Shown: piece after piece, positions 29,166 through 45,369 of the stretch
Position numbering within the stretch: position 1 is the stretch's first letter
How the letters are laid out: each line of letters begins with the position of its first letter
Assembly (NCBI GenBank): GCA_021790795.1
Contig: JAJYFU010000013.1
Coordinates: 1-46,283, forward strand
Reading direction: 5' to 3'
DNA length: 46,283 nt
Origin: Pseudomonadota bacterium
Lineage (GTDB): Bacteria; Pseudomonadota; Gammaproteobacteria; Steroidobacterales; Steroidobacteraceae
The notes under the pieces: model-generated
Seen by the model: only the letters and a program-made list of their open reading frames with translations
Databases searched by the model: none
Told to the model about the DNA's origin: nothing
Position numbers and translations under genes: made by a program

Positions 29166-30782
29166 CTAGCCGGCCGCGCTAATAGGTGACGTAACCTCGC
29201 GCGGCAGGGGAAATGCGAGCATTACGCGCGTGCCCTCCCCGACTTCACTCTCGATCCTGAGCGTGCCGCCGAGCCGGCGTGCCCGATCCTCCATGATCGA
29301 CAGGCCCAGATGCTCGCCGGGACGCTCATCGATATCGGCCTGCCTGAACCCGACGCCATCATCCTCGATCAGAACCCAACCGGTATTCTCGGTCCCGTCG
29401 TCGCGCAGGATCACCCGCACGTGCTGAGCCTCGCCGTGCTTGCGCACGTTGGCCAGAGCCTCCTGCACGATCCGCAGCACCTGCATCTCCAGGTGCGCAG
29501 GCAGACTTACATCGTGCCATTCCCGCTGAAAGAAGATATCGACGCCGCTTTCGCGGGCGAAGCTGTCGACCACCTGCTCGACCGCCGTGACAAGGCCATC
29601 ATGGCTCATCGGCGCACGAAATTGGACCAGCAGCTCGCGAAGCTCCCGATTCGCCTCATCCAGGCTGTTGGTGATGCGGCTGAGAAAGTTGCGGGCCGCC
29701 GGTTGGTCGCCCGCCAGAAGAGTTTCGTCGAGCGTGTGCACCTGGAAGCGCAGACTGCTCAGAGTCTGCGCAAGCGAATCGTGCAGCTCGTGGGCGAGAA
29801 CGGTGCGCGCCTCCATGACGCTGAGACGCTTGGCCTCCTCGTCCAGCCGCGCCTTCTCGATCGCCATACCGAGGTGGCGGCCGATGTTCTTGAGCAGATC
29901 GCTCAGGTCTTCGCGCGGGAATGGAAGCGGCCGCTCCAAGAACAGGTTATAAATGCCGAGTACCCGCCCGCGGTAGATCAGCGGCACCGCCACCATCTCC
30001 ATGCAGTCGTCGCAGGCAAGCATCGGCCGGCCCACCACTTCGCGGCAAAGCTCAAGAGCGCGGAATTGTGGTTTCCGCTCCGTGACGGCCCTGCCGCAAG
30101 CACACTGGTTCACCGGTACCAGGCGCTCGCGGCCGAAGATTTCCTCGTCGAGTCCTTTGCCGGCCACGAGCCGCAGCTGCCCGTCGCTGGTCAGCAGACG
30201 GACCAGTCCCCCCCGGGCCTCGACGACCTCGCTGATGATCTCGAGAAATTTCTTGAGCAGCTGATCGAGGTCACGCGAGGTGTTGATCGTTGCCGCGACG
30301 TCGCAGAGAACTTCCAGCGAGCGCGTCTTCTGGGCGATGCGGTGGGTCGTCTTTTGTACCCGCGCCTCCATCTGCGCAGACAGGCCGGACACCATCTCGC
30401 CCACGCCGTTGACTTCCTGCGCCAGTTGGCGAAACTCACCGGTTTGCGGCTCGGGCATTCGTGCCGTAAGGTCGCCCCCGCGCATCCGGGCTGCCCAATC
30501 GCGCAGATCGGCCAGCGGCTGCAGAAGATTGCGGCGGACGCGTCGCTCAAAGAGCAGTGTCAGCGCCGCTGCCGCAGCGGTCACACCGAGCGCAAGCACG
30601 GAAAGTCGCATACGCCAAACCGGTTCGGCGGCAAACAGCGACGCCAGCGCGGCCAGCGCGCCAAGCAGCAGCGCCAGCCGCAAGCCCGGCCCCTCGGCGC
30701 GGCGCATGATCCCGGCGCAATGTCCGACCGTCCGCGGTGCCTCCTGCCCGGCGGAACTCTGCGTGCGCCCGATGACACTCAT
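29166..30782 (-). CDS. NarX-like sensor histidine kinase with HAMP and cysteine-bearing GAF domain
   Basis: A 538-residue membrane kinase. Two hydrophobic spans (about 33-52 and 58-78), a HAMP linker (about 80-135), a coiled coil, a GAF domain (about 160-310), then HisKA_3 with phospho-acceptor His334 in HELHDSLAQTLSSLRF and an ATPase domain (NVRKHGEA, EDDGVGF, GLSIMEDRA). There is almost no periplasmic loop, so the input is probably cytoplasmic. The GAF domain has five cysteines: Cys227 and Cys229 (NQCACGRAV), Cys246, Cys257 and Cys260 (ACDDC), a set that could bind an Fe-S cluster or sense redox. It lies 96 bases after dsrN. Confidence 0.9.
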   Translation of the reverse strand: MSVIGRTQSSAGQEAPRTVGHCAGIMRRAEGPGLRLALLLGALAALASLFAAEPVWRMRLSVLALGVTAAAAALTLLFERRVRRNLLQPLADLRDWAARMRGGDLTARMPEPQTGEFRQLAQEVNGVGEMVSGLSAQMEARVQKTTHRIAQKTRSLEVLCDVAATINTSRDLDQLLKKFLEIISEVVEARGGLVRLLTSDGQLRLVAGKGLDEEIFGRERLVPVNQCACGRAVTERKPQFRALELCREVVGRPMLACDDCMEMVAVPLIYRGRVLGIYNLFLERPLPFPREDLSDLLKNIGRHLGMAIEKARLDEEAKRLSVMEARTVLAHELHDSLAQTLSSLRFQVHTLDETLLAGDQPAARNFLSRITNSLDEANRELRELLVQFRAPMSHDGLVTAVEQVVDSFARESGVDIFFQREWHDVSLPAHLEMQVLRIVQEALANVRKHGEAQHVRVILRDDGTENTGWVLIEDDGVGFRQADIDERPGEHLGLSIMEDRARRLGGTLRIESEVGEGTRVMLAFPLPREVTSPISAAG

Positions 30783-39094: not shown

Positions 39095-39190
39095 GACGTA
39101 CAGCCTCGGGGTGTCCGCCACCTGCATTCGCAGCGCCCAGCCGCCGACCCGTCCCGACGGCTACCGCCCCCCGGCACCGCTATCCGCCGA

Positions 39191-39529
39191 TCAAATGCAG
39201 CCCGTCGGCTTCGGCAAACCGGCATAGCGGCAGGCCTGCTTGGCCGGACCGTAGGGAAAGAGCTCGTAGAGATACTTGCTGTTTCCCTTTTCGGGCCCGA
39301 GTTTCTTGCCGATCGCCTTGGTCAGCACACGGATCGCGGGCGCGACCTGATATTCCGCATAATAGTCGCGAAGGAAATTGATCACTTCCCAATGATTCTC
39401 CGTGAGCGCGATGTTGTCCTCGGCCGCCATCGCATTCGCGACCTCCTCATTCCAATCGGCGAGATTGACCAGATAGCCCTCCTCGTCGACCGCCACTTCG
39501 CTATCTTTTATGGCCACTGCTGCCGTCAT
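39191..39529 (-). CDS. dsrC: DsrC, sulfur-carrier protein
   Basis: A 112-residue DsrC/TusE-fold protein that carries sulfur on its flexible C-terminal arm. Both redox cysteines are present: Cys100 and Cys111 (KQACRYAGLPKPTGCI), ten residues apart, with Cys111 as penultimate residue. That pair marks true DsrC able to form the trisulfide, not TusE. Also NHWEVINFLRDYYAEYQVAP. ATG 39529 has AGGAG 8 bases upstream. The 52-base gap from dsrH contains TTGACG and could host an internal promoter, which would suit the high demand for DsrC. Confidence 0.97.
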   Translation of the reverse strand: MTAAVAIKDSEVAVDEEGYLVNLADWNEEVANAMAAEDNIALTENHWEVINFLRDYYAEYQVAPAIRVLTKAIGKKLGPEKGNSKYLYELFPYGPAKQACRYAGLPKPTGCI

Positions 39530-39581
39530 GTTTCTGCTCCTGACAGGCCCATACCTGAGATGTCGTCAAATCCGTAACACG

Positions 39582-40311: not shown

Positions 40312-40671
40312 TCAGTCGCCGAAGACCAGCACCCGGTCCGCCTCGATGCCGGCCTCGATCAACTGGCCGAGACCGGAGATGTGAAAGCCTGGCGCCAGAA
40401 TCTCGGCCTTGATGCCCCGGCGCAGGCTCGCTGCCACGCACACCACCAGATCGATGTCATGCTGCGCGGCCAGTGTCGACCACTGGCGCGTCACGTTGCG
40501 GTCGTCCTGCGGGGGCTCGGTCAGCTTGTTCGCGTTGTTGACGCCATCGTTATAGAAGAATACGCGATAGATTTCGTGACCTTTTGCCAATGCCGCCACG
40601 GCGAACTGATAGGCCGAGTCGGACGCCTGATGCTGATAGGGCCCCTCGTTGACGAGTATTCCGAACTTCAT
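40312..40671 (-). CDS. dsrE: DsrE, sulfurtransferase catalytic subunit
   Basis: A 119-residue TusD-like subunit; its Cys78 (LVVCVAASLRRG) is at the position of the active-site cysteine of A. vinosum DsrE that binds persulfide. MKFGILVNEGPYQHQASDSA is the typical start. Its ATG overlaps the dsrB stop by 4 bases (ATGA). Together with DsrF and DsrH, it indicates an oxidative Dsr pathway. Confidence 0.95.
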   Translation of the reverse strand: MKFGILVNEGPYQHQASDSAYQFAVAALAKGHEIYRVFFYNDGVNNANKLTEPPQDDRNVTRQWSTLAAQHDIDLVVCVAASLRRGIKAEILAPGFHISGLGQLIEAGIEADRVLVFGD

Positions 40672-41771
40672 CGTCCGTCCCCGGTGCCGGCCGAAAGGCG
40701 GATGTGCGCCGAGGCGTTCAGGCTCGCACGGCCGCCGCGCCAGTCATCGATGTGGTAGGGCGTGAAAGGCAGGCCTGTCAGCTCGAAGAAGCGCGGCCAG
40801 CCGATGCGCTCGATCCACTCGCCAATGCGTTCCCACTCCCTGGCGTCCTGTTGATAGGCGCGCAGGATCTTCCTCACCACGGCGGACACTTCCGGCCAGC
40901 GCGGCGGATTGTTGGGCAGACCGGCCACCGCGAGCTTGTGGAACATCGGTCGGCTGCGGGCGTTGGAGTGCTTCCCTCCCACCCAGACGGCGATCTTCGT
41001 ATGCTCCGGATCATTGATCTGCATCGGCGGACACGGAGGGTAACAGGCGCCACAGCAGACGCATTTCGTCTCGTCGACCTCCAGCGTCGGCTTGCCATTG
41101 ACGACGGCGGGCCTGATCGCCGCCACCGGACAGCGCGCCACCACGACCGGACGCTCGCAGATATTAGCCACCAGGTCGTGATTGATCCTGGGCGGTTTGG
41201 TGTGCTGGATGTTGACCGCAATGTCGCCCTGGCCGCCGCAGTTGACCTCACAGCACGAGGTGGTGATACCCACGCGATTCGGCATCCGCTCGTTGGCGAA
41301 TTCCTCGTGCAGCTCGTCCATCAGCGCCTTGACCACTCCCGATGCATCGGTGCCCGGAATGTCGCAATGAAGCCAGCCCTGGGTATGGGAGATTGCGCGG
41401 ACCGAATTGCCGGTGCCCCCGACGGGGAAGCCCGCGGCGTCGAGGGCCGCGATCAGCGGAGCAACCTTGGCCTCGTCTCCGACCATGAACTCGATATTGC
41501 TGCGGATGGTGAAACGGACGTAGCCATCGGCATACGCATCGGCGATGTCGCAAAGCTTGCGGACCGTAAAGACATCCATCTGTCGCTGCGTTCCGGCTCG
41601 CACGGTCCACACTTGCTCGCCGTTCTCGGCCACATGGTGCAGGACACCCGCACGGGGACGCTCGTGCCATTTCCACTTGCCGTAGTTCTTATTCAGGATC
41701 GGATGCATGAACTGGAAGGCATCCGGAACGCCGCTCTCAATCGGCATGCGCGGCTTTGCGGGACCGCTCAT
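40668..41771 (-). CDS. dsrB: DsrB, dissimilatory sulfite reductase beta subunit
   Basis: A 367-residue subunit of the siroheme enzyme that in sulfur oxidisers releases sulfite from persulfidic sulfur. Siroheme/[4Fe-4S] region SCCEVNCGGQGD; ferredoxin insertion with CVCCGACYPPCPPMQIND; SVRAISHTQGWLHCDIPG near the substrate site. ATG 41771 shares one base with the dsrA stop (TGATG), so translation is coupled. Confidence 0.97.
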   Translation of the reverse strand: MSGPAKPRMPIESGVPDAFQFMHPILNKNYGKWKWHERPRAGVLHHVAENGEQVWTVRAGTQRQMDVFTVRKLCDIADAYADGYVRFTIRSNIEFMVGDEAKVAPLIAALDAAGFPVGGTGNSVRAISHTQGWLHCDIPGTDASGVVKALMDELHEEFANERMPNRVGITTSCCEVNCGGQGDIAVNIQHTKPPRINHDLVANICERPVVVARCPVAAIRPAVVNGKPTLEVDETKCVCCGACYPPCPPMQINDPEHTKIAVWVGGKHSNARSRPMFHKLAVAGLPNNPPRWPEVSAVVRKILRAYQQDAREWERIGEWIERIGWPRFFELTGLPFTPYHIDDWRGGRASLNASAHIRLSAGTGDGR

Positions 41772-43045
41772 CAAAGGCCCTCCGTATCTTGTGAGCCTTT
41801 GCGCGCATTCCATTTGGCGACTTCCTCGTCCCAGCCGTCGGTGCGGACATAGGGGTTGGTGCGCGGATGCAGCACCATGCTCGGATCGGGCTCGAGACCG
41901 ACAGCCTCGAGGAAGTTGGCAAAGCCGATCCGCTCGATCATCTCACCGGTACGCTCATGCTCGAGGGCGTTCTCGGCGAAGAAGTCGATGATGCTCTGAG
42001 TCAGCGCCTGCAGCTTGCGGAAATCCTCATCCTTGTCCAGCTTCATGAACGGCACGATCACGGTACCGAAGAGATCCCCGATTTTTAGCGTACGCTTGCC
42101 GCCGAGAAGAATCGTGACGCCCCGGTCCTTGCCTGGACGCAGCGCCTTAGGCATGACGTTTATGCAATGCATGCAGCGCACGCAGTTGCGGTTATCGATG
42201 ACGACAGTTTCGTCATCCTTCAGCGAGACGCAGCGGGTCGGGCAGCGGGTGACGACGTTGTCGATCATCGCCTGACGACCGTGCATGGCCACGAACTTGC
42301 GCACCTCGTCCTGGTCGACCTGGATATCGTCGCGCCAAGTGCCGATCACCGCCATGTCAGCGCGCTGGATCGCGTTCATGCAGTCGTTCGGGCAGCCGGA
42401 GAACTTGAACTTGAATTTGTAGGGCAGCGCCGGACGATGCATGTCGTCCAGAAAGGCATTGATGATCTGAGTGTGCGCGCGGATCTCGTCGTAGCAGGAC
42501 TGCTCGCAGCGGGCATGCCCCACGCAGGACATCGAGGTGCGCACGGCCGGCCCGGCGCCGCCCAGGTCGTAGCCCAACTCGTTCAGCTCGTCGAAGCAGG
42601 GCTGAACGTTACGGCTGCTGCATCCCTGCAGCATGATGTCGCCGCTTTGGCCGTGCAGGGCAATCAGGCCGGAGCCATACTTCTCCCAGACTTCGCAGAT
42701 CTTGCGCAGCGCGTCCGTGGTGTAGTGCATGCCCGGCGACGGCATGATGCGCAGAGTGTGAAACTCTGCCGCCTGCGGAAATTCGGGCGTGCCGTCCGCG
42801 CCGCGCAATTCGCTGAAGCGGGGGATGACGCCGCCGCCGTAGCCGATCACGCCCACCGTGCCGCCCTTCCAATAGCCGCGCTTGGTTTCGTAGGACCGCT
42901 CGAGCTGGCCGAGCAGGTCTTTCATCATGCCGGCGTAAGGCTTGTCCTCGGCGTTGGCCAGACGCTTGAGGCCCGAGACGAAACTGGGCCACGGGCCGCT
43001 TTCAAGCTGGTCCAGCATGGGTGTTTCAGGGGTTTTCGGGCTCAT
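41771..43045 (-). CDS. dsrA: DsrA, dissimilatory sulfite reductase alpha subunit
   Basis: A 424-residue subunit and first gene of the thirteen-gene operon. Siroheme-linked cluster cysteines in SMSCVGHARCEQSCYDE and FKFSGCPNDCMNA, ferredoxin domain with CPTRCVSLK and NRNCVRCMHCINVMPKAL. ATG 43045 (MSPKTPETPMLDQLESGPWP) matches the family start; the frame stays open upstream but without similarity. The ribosome site is weak (ACGAGAC). The promoter must lie in the 210-base spacer shared with the Cas6-like gene. Confidence 0.97.
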   Translation of the reverse strand: MSPKTPETPMLDQLESGPWPSFVSGLKRLANAEDKPYAGMMKDLLGQLERSYETKRGYWKGGTVGVIGYGGGVIPRFSELRGADGTPEFPQAAEFHTLRIMPSPGMHYTTDALRKICEVWEKYGSGLIALHGQSGDIMLQGCSSRNVQPCFDELNELGYDLGGAGPAVRTSMSCVGHARCEQSCYDEIRAHTQIINAFLDDMHRPALPYKFKFKFSGCPNDCMNAIQRADMAVIGTWRDDIQVDQDEVRKFVAMHGRQAMIDNVVTRCPTRCVSLKDDETVVIDNRNCVRCMHCINVMPKALRPGKDRGVTILLGGKRTLKIGDLFGTVIVPFMKLDKDEDFRKLQALTQSIIDFFAENALEHERTGEMIERIGFANFLEAVGLEPDPSMVLHPRTNPYVRTDGWDEEVAKWNARKGSQDTEGL

Positions 43046-43254
43046 TGTCTCGTGTCGCGTGTTGTCTGTTCTGACCTGCTCACGGACTCCGAATCCCGTT
43101 CGCCGCACGCGAAGCCACGAAACTACGGAATCCGAAAGGAACTCTAGGCGCGAGCGGCGGCGGGTGATATCGCGCAGATGGGATATGCTGGCGCGGCACG
43201 GTGTATCTCCGACGGGATATATACGATGCGCGACCGGCCAGGAAACCTTGTTGT
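43046..43254. promoter_or_regulatory. Shared divergent control region of dsrA and the Cas6-like gene
   Basis: About 209 bases between two divergent starts. On the plus strand an AT-rich GATATATACGAT (about 43216-43228) is a fair -10 candidate for the Cas6-like gene. For dsrA I see no good sigma-70 pair. Position implies joint regulation; no operator can be named. Confidence 0.4.
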
Positions 43255-43941
43255 GTGCGGTCGCATTACTGGAACGACGATGATGGAGACGCCAGAGGCG
43301 CCGCCTGCACGGCGGCCGATCTGGCGTTCGCGCTCTCCGGCCGGGCGATTCCGCTCGATTACACTGCCGTCCTTTCACGGGCGGTGATTGAAAAGCTGGC
43401 CTGGCTTGCATCGGTGCGCAGCGCCGGTTTGCGTCTGGCTCTGGGGGTCGAGTCGGGTAACGGCTGGCAGCGCGACGACGGCAAGGGCGCTCTCATCTAC
43501 CTTTCCAGACGGGCACGTCTGGTATTGCGCCTGCCGCTGGTACGGCTCGAAGACGCGAGCGCCCTTTCAGGCAAGACGCTGGAAATTGGCGGGTTCCCGT
43601 TGACCGTCGGGGAGCCCAGGGTCCATTCGCTTACGCCGTCGGATACGCTCTACGCCCAGCATGTCATTGATGAGACCGGTGATGAGGACGCCTTCCTCGA
43701 TCGGGTGGCACGGGCGATCGATGCACTTGGACCCGTACCGCCGAAGATCATGTGCGGCAAGAAACGGCAGGTGGCCAGCCCGAACGGCTGGCTTTGCACG
43801 CGCAGCGTGATGGTCGCGGGACTTGCGCCGCGCGATTCGCTTGCGCTGATGGCCGAAGGCGTCGGCTCCGGCCGGCTGATGGGCTGTGGTCTTTTCGTCC
43901 CGTACAAGAGGTTCAGTGCGCTGGTGCGCGGCGCCGGGTAA
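43255..43941 (+). CDS. Lone Cas6/Cmx6-like protein (type I-MYXAN family) divergent from dsrA
   Basis: A 228-residue protein resembling Cas6/Cmx6, the CRISPR RNA endoribonuclease of the MYXAN subtype. Visible: DLAFALSGRAIPLDYTAVLS near the start, LALGVESGNGWQRDD, GALIYLSRRARLVLRLPL, and a C-terminal glycine-rich loop GVGSGRLMGCGLFVP that fits the Cas6 pattern GxGxxxxxGxG. I take GTG 43255 as start because the family begins shortly before a YW...DD stretch, present here as SHYWNDDDGD; GTG 43201 is an alternative. No CRISPR array or other cas gene is in the window. It is divergent from dsrA and ends 6 bases from cysG. Role unknown; a housekeeping RNA-processing or dsr-linked role is possible. 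Confidence 0.75.
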   Translation: MRSHYWNDDDGDARGAACTAADLAFALSGRAIPLDYTAVLSRAVIEKLAWLASVRSAGLRLALGVESGNGWQRDDGKGALIYLSRRARLVLRLPLVRLEDASALSGKTLEIGGFPLTVGEPRVHSLTPSDTLYAQHVIDETGDEDAFLDRVARAIDALGPVPPKIMCGKKRQVASPNGWLCTRSVMVAGLAPRDSLALMAEGVGSGRLMGCGLFVPYKRFSALVRGAG

Positions 43942-43947
43942 CAGCGC

Positions 43948-45369
43948 CTATCCGACCGCTTTGAGCGCTGTACCCTCTGCGGTATCTGCGCCCTCGAACC
44001 AGGCGAGCCGCTCGTGGAGCCTGACCACCTCCCCGATGATGAGGAGCGACGGCGGCCGCATCCGGAATTCGGCGGCCCTGGTGGGCAAGCTTGCCAGATC
44101 ACCGATCAGCACCCGTTGGCTCTGCGTAGTGCCGTCCTGCACCAGCGCGGCGGGCGTTTCGGCCGAAAGCCCTGCGCCGATCAGCCGCTGACAGATCGAC
44201 TCGAGAGCGTGCAGGCCCATATAGACCACGACGGTCTGACGGGGCTGGGCCAGTGCGCGCCAGTCGAGATCACCGCCGTCCTTGAGATGACCCGGAACGA
44301 AAACGCAGCTATGGGCATAATCTCGATGGGTCAGCGGAATACCTGCGTAGGACGCACAGCCCGACGCCGCCGTGACACCCGGCACGATCTGGAACGGAAT
44401 GCCCTTTTCGGCCAGCGCATCCGCCTCTTCACCGCCGCGCCCAAAAATGAAGGGATCGCCGCCTTTGAGGCGCAGGACCCGCTTGCCCTGGCGGGCAAGG
44501 CGTACCAGAATCTGGTTGATCTCGTCCTGCGGCAGGCTGTGGTCGCATCGCGCCTTACCGACATAGATGCGCTCCGCGCCGCGATGCGCGAGTTCGAGAA
44601 TTGCCGGCGCCACCAGCCGGTCGTAGACCACCACATCGGCCTGCTGCATCAGACGCAGGGCGCGGAAAGTCAGCAGGTCTGGATCGCCGGGACCTGCGCC
44701 AACCAGATACACTTCGCCCACCGACAACGACGATGGCGTGTCCCGCTGCAGCGCCACTTCGACGGCGAGTCTCGCCGCCTGCTCCCTTCCTGTCAGCATC
44801 ATCTCAGCCGCCGGGCCCTGCAGCACGTCTTCCCAGAATCGGCGGCGCTGCGCCAAGTCCGAGAATCGGCGCTTGACGCGCTCCCGGAAGCCCTCCGCCA
44901 GCGCGGCCAGCTTGCCATAGGAAGCCGGCAGCAGCGTCTCCACCTTGGTGCGCACAATGCGCGCGAGAACCGGCGAGGCCCCGCCGGATGACACAGCCAC
45001 GATCACCGGGGATCGATCGACGATGGAGGGCACGATGAAGCTGCAAAGCTCAGGCGCGTCGACCACGTTCACTGGAATCGCACACTTCCGGCACAACCCG
45101 GAAACCTCGCCATTGAGGGCCTCGTCATCGGTGGCAGCGATGACCAGCGCGCTGCCCTCGAGGTCGCTCGGTTGGAATACGCGGGCGCGGTGGCTGATCC
45201 TTCCCGCGTCGCGATCCTGCACGAGACTTCCGCAGAGCTCGGGTGCCACCACCGTGACGGCGGCGTTCGCCCGCAGCAGCAATTCCGCCTTGCGTGCGGC
45301 GACCTCGCCGCCGCCCACCACGAGGCAGGGGCGCAAGCGGATATCCACGAAGATCGGCAAGAATTCCAT
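43948..45369 (-). CDS. cysG: Siroheme synthase CysG (trifunctional)
   Basis: A 473-residue enzyme making siroheme from uroporphyrinogen III. N-terminal NAD-dependent dehydrogenase/ferrochelatase half: VVGGGEVAARKAELLL (17-32), AATDDEALN and the catalytic region VSSGGASPVLAR. C-terminal methyltransferase half: GEVYLVGAGPGDPDLLTFRA, VYDRLV, LKGGDPFIFGRGGEEA and PGVTAASGCASYAGIPLTHR. Its product is the DsrAB cofactor, the likely reason for its place beside the dsr operon. ATG 45369 is family-like with a weak ribosome site. Confidence 0.95.
   Translation of the reverse strand: MEFLPIFVDIRLRPCLVVGGGEVAARKAELLLRANAAVTVVAPELCGSLVQDRDAGRISHRARVFQPSDLEGSALVIAATDDEALNGEVSGLCRKCAIPVNVVDAPELCSFIVPSIVDRSPVIVAVSSGGASPVLARIVRTKVETLLPASYGKLAALAEGFRERVKRRFSDLAQRRRFWEDVLQGPAAEMMLTGREQAARLAVEVALQRDTPSSLSVGEVYLVGAGPGDPDLLTFRALRLMQQADVVVYDRLVAPAILELAHRGAERIYVGKARCDHSLPQDEINQILVRLARQGKRVLRLKGGDPFIFGRGGEEADALAEKGIPFQIVPGVTAASGCASYAGIPLTHRDYAHSCVFVPGHLKDGGDLDWRALAQPRQTVVVYMGLHALESICQRLIGAGLSAETPAALVQDGTTQSQRVLIGDLASLPTRAAEFRMRPPSLLIIGEVVRLHERLAWFEGADTAEGTALKAVG

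Follow-up and report, generated by a model that had tools for sequence, protein, structure and literature searches.

A Cas6-family protein that accompanies the genes of reverse-Dsr sulfur oxidation in gammaproteobacteria

The window analysed here, a 46,283-nucleotide stretch from a member of the Steroidobacteraceae, carries dsr genes on its reverse strand. The gene for the alpha subunit of dissimilatory sulfite reductase, dsrA, lies at 41771..43045 (-; TIGR02064, 567.6 bits), dsrB at 40668..41771 (-; TIGR02066, 522.8 bits; start inferred from sequence) and dsrC, encoding an ordinary sulfur carrier with both C-terminal cysteines, at 39191..39535 (-; TIGR03342, 170 bits; 5' end approximate). Divergent from dsrA, with 209 bp between the dsrA start at 43045 (-) and its own, is a gene for a 228-aa Cas6-like protein (43255..43941, +; GTG start, TAA stop) that belongs to a Dsr-linked subfamily of the Cas6 family; a start codon also stands at the equivalent place in close homologues. 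This arrangement bears out the original prediction that the gene shares a control region with dsr. Its supposed tie to cysG holds only in part. The siroheme synthase gene (43948..45369, -; NF007922, 639 bits) does end 6 bp from the 3' end of the cas6-like gene, but the two meet tail-to-tail and, being convergent, are not one operon. The linkage is also local to the window's clade: cysG adjoins the cas6-like gene in 6 of 7 loci of that clade (the seventh, L048, stops short of cysG) and in 0 of 20 other loci as far as these extend, with cysG some 4 kb off in L069. At the end of the dsr operon, an adjoining ORF (29166-30782, -) encodes a NarX/NarQ-like sensor kinase, for which a link to dsr control is possible.

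Profile match, fold and glycine-rich loop together confirm that the window protein is a true member of the Cas6 family, of the Cas6/Cmx6-like kind that had been predicted. It matches the PF09559 Cas6 profile with an E value of 5.1e-50 (170.5 bits, cut-off 26.7) and is the sole match above cut-off in its genome, the other (on contig C119, 17 bits) falling below it. The NCBIfam model cas6_cmx6 (TIGR02807) is passed by 0.45 bit (99.3 bits, cut-off 98.85), and the C-terminal loop reads GxGxxxxxGCG at residues 202-212. Structure prediction, proposed at the outset as a check, gave a Cas6 fold (AlphaFold; pLDDT 84, pTM 0.80) whose best PDB match in Foldseek is 8fcu_B, a type I-B Cas6 (E 1.3e-15, TM 0.75/0.80), followed by PfCas6 of Pyrococcus and then by Thermus Cse3-RNA structures. 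This type I-B CAST Cas6 (PDB 8fcj/8fcu), the best PDB match in fold and in sequence, is part of a Cascade-transposon complex and is 27% identical to the window protein. The window protein is basic (pI 9.0) and retains residues W6, G70 and W71 (the GW insert), R86 and R92 of its subfamily, but it lacks the usual catalytic histidine of the Cas6 family. The histidine column holds Tyr36, just before helix 37-47 of the predicted structure, and alignment and place in the fold suggest that this is the catalytic position. According to PMC3652601, the catalytic histidine of Cas6 usually, though not universally, lies at or before helix 1, and the Sulfolobus Cas6 Sso1437, which has no canonical catalytic histidine, processes CRISPR RNA by means of a network of basic residues instead. 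Sso1437 resembles the Tyr36 clade in being a Cas6 without the canonical histidine but differs from the Dsr-linked protein in acting on CRISPR RNA.

To judge from where it occurs, the cas6-like gene is a companion of the Dsr pathway in sulfur-oxidising gammaproteobacteria. Among 58 genomes of the window's own genus, dsrA was above cut-off in seven and PF09559 in six, all six among those seven, and PF09559 was found in none of the 51 dsrA-less genomes; in the seventh dsrA-bearing genome (G067) the contig stops 216 bp upstream of the dsrA match. A profile built from five sequences found 27 relatives on named GTDB contigs, with sources that include Thiohalophilus, Thioalkalivibrio, Thiothrix and Thiomargarita. 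DsrA is encoded on the same piece in 21, always divergently. The pieces without it are L060, L062, L064, L068, L072 and L074, of which L062 and L068 are contigs of less than 4 kb and L064 comes from a genome (G085) with dsrA on another contig. One locus (L052) is labelled Alphaproteobacteria, but its protein falls in the window's clade, whose genus belongs to the class of Thiohalophilus (Gammaproteobacteria).

The association is as close in a wider sample of 369 genomes drawn evenly from the one class Gammaproteobacteria, with dsrA called by TIGR02064 at E <= 1e-40. PF09559 was found in 118 and dsrA in 118; 111 genomes have both, 244 neither, and seven each have one without the other (Fisher P 5e-76, uncorrected for phylogeny). 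Presence of the gene follows dsrA across these genomes, as for a Dsr accessory gene, with the same proviso about phylogeny. Where the two lie on one contig (84 pairs), 82 are divergent and 0.7-4.5 kb apart and two are distant (41 kb in G199, 517 kb in G412). They lie on separate contigs in 27 of the 111 genomes; in several of these (G187, G392, G147 and G122) the cas6-like gene is well inside its contig, so that here there is co-occurrence without linkage. Such neighbourhood counts are restricted by the contig ends of MAGs. In all seven PF09559-only genomes the gene lies within 2.7 kb of a contig end on its upstream side; G405 has a dsrA stub at the contig end, and G386, where the gene may simply be unlinked, has a DsrC-family match on the opposite strand 1.1 kb upstream. 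Among the dsrA-only genomes, dsrA is at a contig edge in G160, G169, G200 and G295, less than 1.9 kb of upstream sequence is present in G213 (with a TauD-like gene there) and G442, and only G299 has ample upstream sequence yet no cas6-like gene. The neighbourhood survey suggested with the original prediction thus found the dsrA linkage conserved across the sampled gammaproteobacteria.

As far as gene order and family matches show, the cas6-like gene is in many of these gammaproteobacteria part of a small unit, divergent from dsrA and often with members missing, that also encodes a TauD-like oxygenase, a helical protein and a cysteine-less DsrC. A TauD-like Fe/2OG oxygenase is encoded upstream of the cas6-like gene in 41 of 58 genomes and a 235-aa all-helical protein in 28 of them (2 kb read), whilst a DsrC/TusE-family protein is encoded downstream in 88 of the 114 genomes with 600 bp of room. 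In 100 dsrA-side regions the first gene found after dsrA encodes the TauD-like protein in 78, the helical protein in nine and the Cas6-like protein in 13, seven of these from the window's clade. The TauD-like proteins retain the HxD...H iron triad; the helical protein has no PDB fold match at E <= 0.001. In the window's clade the oxygenase, helical and DsrC-paralogue genes were not found near the cas6-like gene in the stretches read, which extend as far as 10 kb downstream in L051 and L054 and in most other loci cover some 2 kb or less.

The downstream DsrC paralogues end in GGY in 87 of 88 cases, as against GC(V/I) in DsrC, and so have lost the cysteine arm; six of the 88 have a cysteine at another place among their last 40 residues. 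In another set of 58 loci, in which a genome may be present twice, all 58 paralogues end in GGY with no cysteine in that stretch. The family (for example L058:10786-11130 and L061:10792-11145) also has invariant residues of its own. There is some likeness here to the DsrC homologues outside the dsr operon that lack both cysteines, which we take to be the group RspA. The existence of such homologues is stated in PMC4287430, in which 'cas6' and 'CRISPR' do not occur; the likeness to the downstream paralogue, with its GGY end and no C-terminal cysteine, lies in the cysteine loss.

The Dsr-linked proteins are distinct from the Cas6/Cmx6 proteins of CRISPR systems. The comparison set, collected with a Dsr-type query, consists of eight proteins from cyanobacterial plasmids, seven of which lie beside cas genes whilst one (L119) does not. 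In a quick maximum-likelihood tree, these eight split from 139 Dsr-type rows, in which a few genomes are present twice, with an SH-aLRT of 98; the Dsr-type proteins do not group with the CRISPR-linked members in this tree. The seven type I-MYXAN proteins (TIGR02807, PF09559; L116-L118 and L120-L123) are like the Dsr-linked set in matching the profile over about 190 residues and in having a DH motif and a glycine-rich loop. They are unlike it in adjoining cas genes, in being strongly basic (pI 9.3-10.2) and in lacking the N-terminal W, W71 and R183, and mean identity between the two sets is 26%. W6, G70, W71, R86 and R92 are present in all 139 Dsr-type rows, and W71 sits in a stretch that is missing from all eight comparison proteins; with one protein per PF09559 genome, the GW motif is found in 118 of 118, as against none of the eight. 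The Cas6-type histidine is kept in 131 of the 139 rows and the glycine-rich loop nearly always, although in the window's clade tyrosine replaces the histidine in seven of eight rows. The median pI of the Dsr-type proteins is 6.2 (below 7 in 91 rows and above 9 in eight), whereas all eight comparison proteins lie at 9.3-10.2, a difference to which a taxon effect may contribute.

Nor does the gene have CRISPR neighbours. It had been predicted to stand without an array or another cas gene in the 46 kb, and both searches came back empty: the window has no CRISPR-like direct repeats, and tblastn at E 1e-3 gave no homologue in it of Cas3, Cas8a1, Cas7, Cas5, Cmx8 or Cas1. The linkage to an array and to cas3, cas8, cas7 and cas5 that marks type I-MYXAN is absent for the window protein. 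The same six I-MYXAN queries, taken from cyanobacterial loci, matched none of 83 loci, all of which hold the cas6-like gene, with some genomes included twice and many loci just 3-4 kb long. A nearby CRISPR array would have spoken against the original prediction, but the window lacks the repeats, and its whole genome (G000; 2.81 Mb in 186 contigs, 95% complete) lacks Cas1 (PF01867, E <= 1e-3) and cas3_core (TIGR01587, E <= 1e-10), the two genes searched for genome-wide. In 80 genomes, G000 and 79 of the 118 with PF09559, Cas1 is missing from 44, eight of them single-contig, and is present somewhere in 36; cas3_core is above cut-off in 19. G214 has a Cas1 match and a sub-cut-off cas3 match 18-22 kb from the cas6-like gene on the same contig. 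Since no CRISPR genes were found beside it, the Cas6-like protein probably has a different job. This and the linkage to dsrA strongly support the proposal that a Cas6-fold protein was recruited away from CRISPR, and the distribution and relationships of these sequences mark out a CRISPR-independent, Dsr-linked Cas6 subfamily that occurs with the genes of reverse-Dsr sulfur oxidation.

The control region between dsrA and the cas6-like gene contains a conserved palindrome, TATCTC-CGAC-GGGATA (43204..43219; consensus TATCCC-N4-GGGATA), which is a putative DNA operator. The window copy, TATCTCCGACGGGATA, is separated by 158 bp from dsrA and by 35 bp from the start of the cas6-like gene and has no second copy in the window. 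In 100 regions from dsrA to the next gene, 99 of them not identical, the best match to the consensus has no mismatch in 28, one in 33 and two in 22, whereas shuffled sequences give 0.1 per 100 with one mismatch or fewer and 2.0 with two. With a spacing of 3, two regions match at two mismatches or fewer (2.3 expected), and with a spacing of 5, ten (2.0 expected). Among 27 genomes chosen for a perfect copy at dsr, that copy is the only perfect one in 23; three genomes carry a single extra copy and one carries two extras. The reversed pattern, used as a control, was found once across 28 genomes. The extra perfect palindromes away from dsr are at C201:755-770 and C329:4541-4556 in G346, and on contig C1 at 498560 in G124, 1761001 in G170 and 6874 in G231.

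Two other roles for the palindrome were considered. As a paired RNA it is unsupported: at 80 non-duplicate sites with two mismatches or fewer, pairing-keeping deviations number 26 for the unit's strand (T/G) and 22 for the dsr strand (C/A), and the half-sites change independently (Fisher P 0.49 and 0.59). As an array repeat of Cas6/Cmx6 it was rejected by eye, the arrays of L120 and L122 holding a short GCC-loop-GGC hairpin instead. Since its half-sites vary independently and without strand preference, the palindrome behaves like a DNA operator, and we infer that expression of the unit is coupled to the dsr operon through it.

A possible RNA target lies elsewhere in the operon. The spacer between dsrC and dsrM may form a stem-loop (39134..39169, -; ends approximate) that is a candidate RNA substrate. 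This ranks within the strongest 0.4% of 36-nt segments from dsrA to dsrK, although for the spacer as a whole the comparison with shuffles is not significant (z -1.4). The spacer hairpin is in the strongest 1% of local 36-nt segments (dsrA-dsrK) in 19 of 25 loci, and in eight it is the very strongest, several segments per spacer having been tried without formal correction; the segment counted in L066 is the 3' end of dsrC itself, and that in L054 extends towards dsrM. Compared with shuffles, 14 of 26 whole spacers reach z <= -2. The window and three of its four close relatives do not, and in those three relatives the hairpin is outside the strongest 0.5%, in two of them outside 2.5%. L165 has the Cas6-like protein with a dsrC-dsrM spacer of 27-28 bp that holds no hairpin. 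A stable stem-loop recurs in many loci (L055-L071, L158-L167); judged by eye, its sequence shifts between loci with pairing kept, and the spacer stem-loops have no common sequence that a Cas6 could read. Rfam gave no match in the window at the gathering threshold.

How does the protein serve the Dsr pathway? RNA binding or processing is the role that we favour, a plausible one on the features of the family, if still short of probable. It is supported by the fold, the near-universal histidine (131/139), the invariant R86 and R92, the glycine-rich loop, the basic pI of the window protein and the spacer hairpins. If the Dsr-linked protein still acts as a Cas6, it might bind an RNA hairpin with its two RRM-like domains and, in lineages keeping the catalytic His36, might cut beside it. 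The most economical substrate would be the dsr transcript, for example at the stem-loop after dsrC, where processing could let the cell make more of the carrier DsrC than of the enzyme complex. The acidic pI of most members and the change of histidine to tyrosine in the window's clade speak against a plain RNase, the oxygenase and cysteine-less DsrC partners give no pointer to mRNA decay, and a role on RNA is also disfavoured by the modest number of structured spacers (14/26), by the hairpin-less L165 and by a palindrome that looks like a DNA operator. The fuller proposal can be put forward only tentatively: in gammaproteobacteria that oxidise sulfur by Dsr, a Cas6 would have left immunity altogether and would now process RNA solely for a core energy pathway, trimming or guarding the dsr transcript or an RNA under the same operator in concert with an Fe/2OG oxygenase and the cysteine-less DsrC, whilst the databases file it as CRISPR.

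The acidity of most members, shared by the helical protein and the DsrC paralogue, also fits a Cas6 fold that serves as a partner for other proteins or as a scaffold and has no RNA role: joined in one complex, it, the helical protein and the DsrC paralogue would control DsrAB or the traffic of DsrC. W6 and W71, invariant in the subfamily and absent from the comparison proteins, agree with this, as does the frequent adjacency of a GGY-ending paralogue that could plausibly mimic the DsrC arm. Such a scaffold would have no need of the Cas6-type histidine, R86, R92 and glycine-rich loop that are kept almost everywhere, and the window protein is basic and has no such partner gene found near it, so this alternative is somewhat doubtful.

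Modification of another RNA, such as a tRNA, is unlikely. Here the Cas6-like protein would present the RNA, the TauD-like oxygenase would hydroxylate it and the TusE/DsrC-like protein would link it to a sulfur relay. Tus proteins serve tRNA thiolation, DsrC and TusE fall under one family model (TIGR03342) and DsrF and TusC under another (TIGR03010), and the iron triad of the oxygenase is intact. However, the C-terminal cysteine is lost in 87 of the 88 paralogues, which cannot transfer sulfur there, the closest named oxygenases act on small molecules, and the window's clade showed no oxygenase gene near the cas6-like one.

Regulation of dsrA and of the unit by one of the unit's own proteins bound to the palindrome, perhaps the Cas6-like protein or its neighbour, the DsrC paralogue, is more improbable still. 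The rarity of further perfect copies in the genomes chosen for one at dsr and the independent half-sites speak for it, but a regulator encoded elsewhere is equally likely, the Cas6-like gene is the only one of the unit found nearby in the window's clade, and no Cas6 protein is known to bind duplex DNA. Finally, a normal Cas6 of a CRISPR system, or the decaying remains of one, working for an array elsewhere, might be read into the cas6_cmx6 scores, the Cas1 genes found somewhere in 36 of 80 genomes and the arrangement in G214, but is largely refuted by the lack of Cas1 and Cas3 in the window's own genome, the separate branch in the quick tree, the universal GW motif and the close tie to dsrA.

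If the preferred reading, that of a Cas6 turned RNA-processing factor for Dsr, is true, a CRISPR name has concealed a gene that 111 of the 118 sampled dsrA-bearing gammaproteobacteria carry, parts that have not been studied are added to the reverse-Dsr pathway, and there is a clear case of Cas6 working outside CRISPR. In these sulfur-oxidising gammaproteobacteria, a 'cas6' gene taken as a sign of CRISPR can be misleading. The TIGR02807 cut-off is passed by nine of ten other Dsr-linked members tested, and the 'equivalog' naming of such proteins as type I-MYXAN Cas6/Cmx6 is apparently a systematic misnaming. Viral contigs gave no relative of the protein, and no paper found in the open-access literature describes, by its terms and passages, a Dsr-linked Cas6-like gene. 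On a plasmid of Gloeobacter morelensis, a gene named Cas6/Cmx6 (L119:5977-6768), with no annotated cas gene within 6 kb, lies near a gene of the phosphoadenosine phosphosulfate reductase family and is perhaps another stray Cas6.
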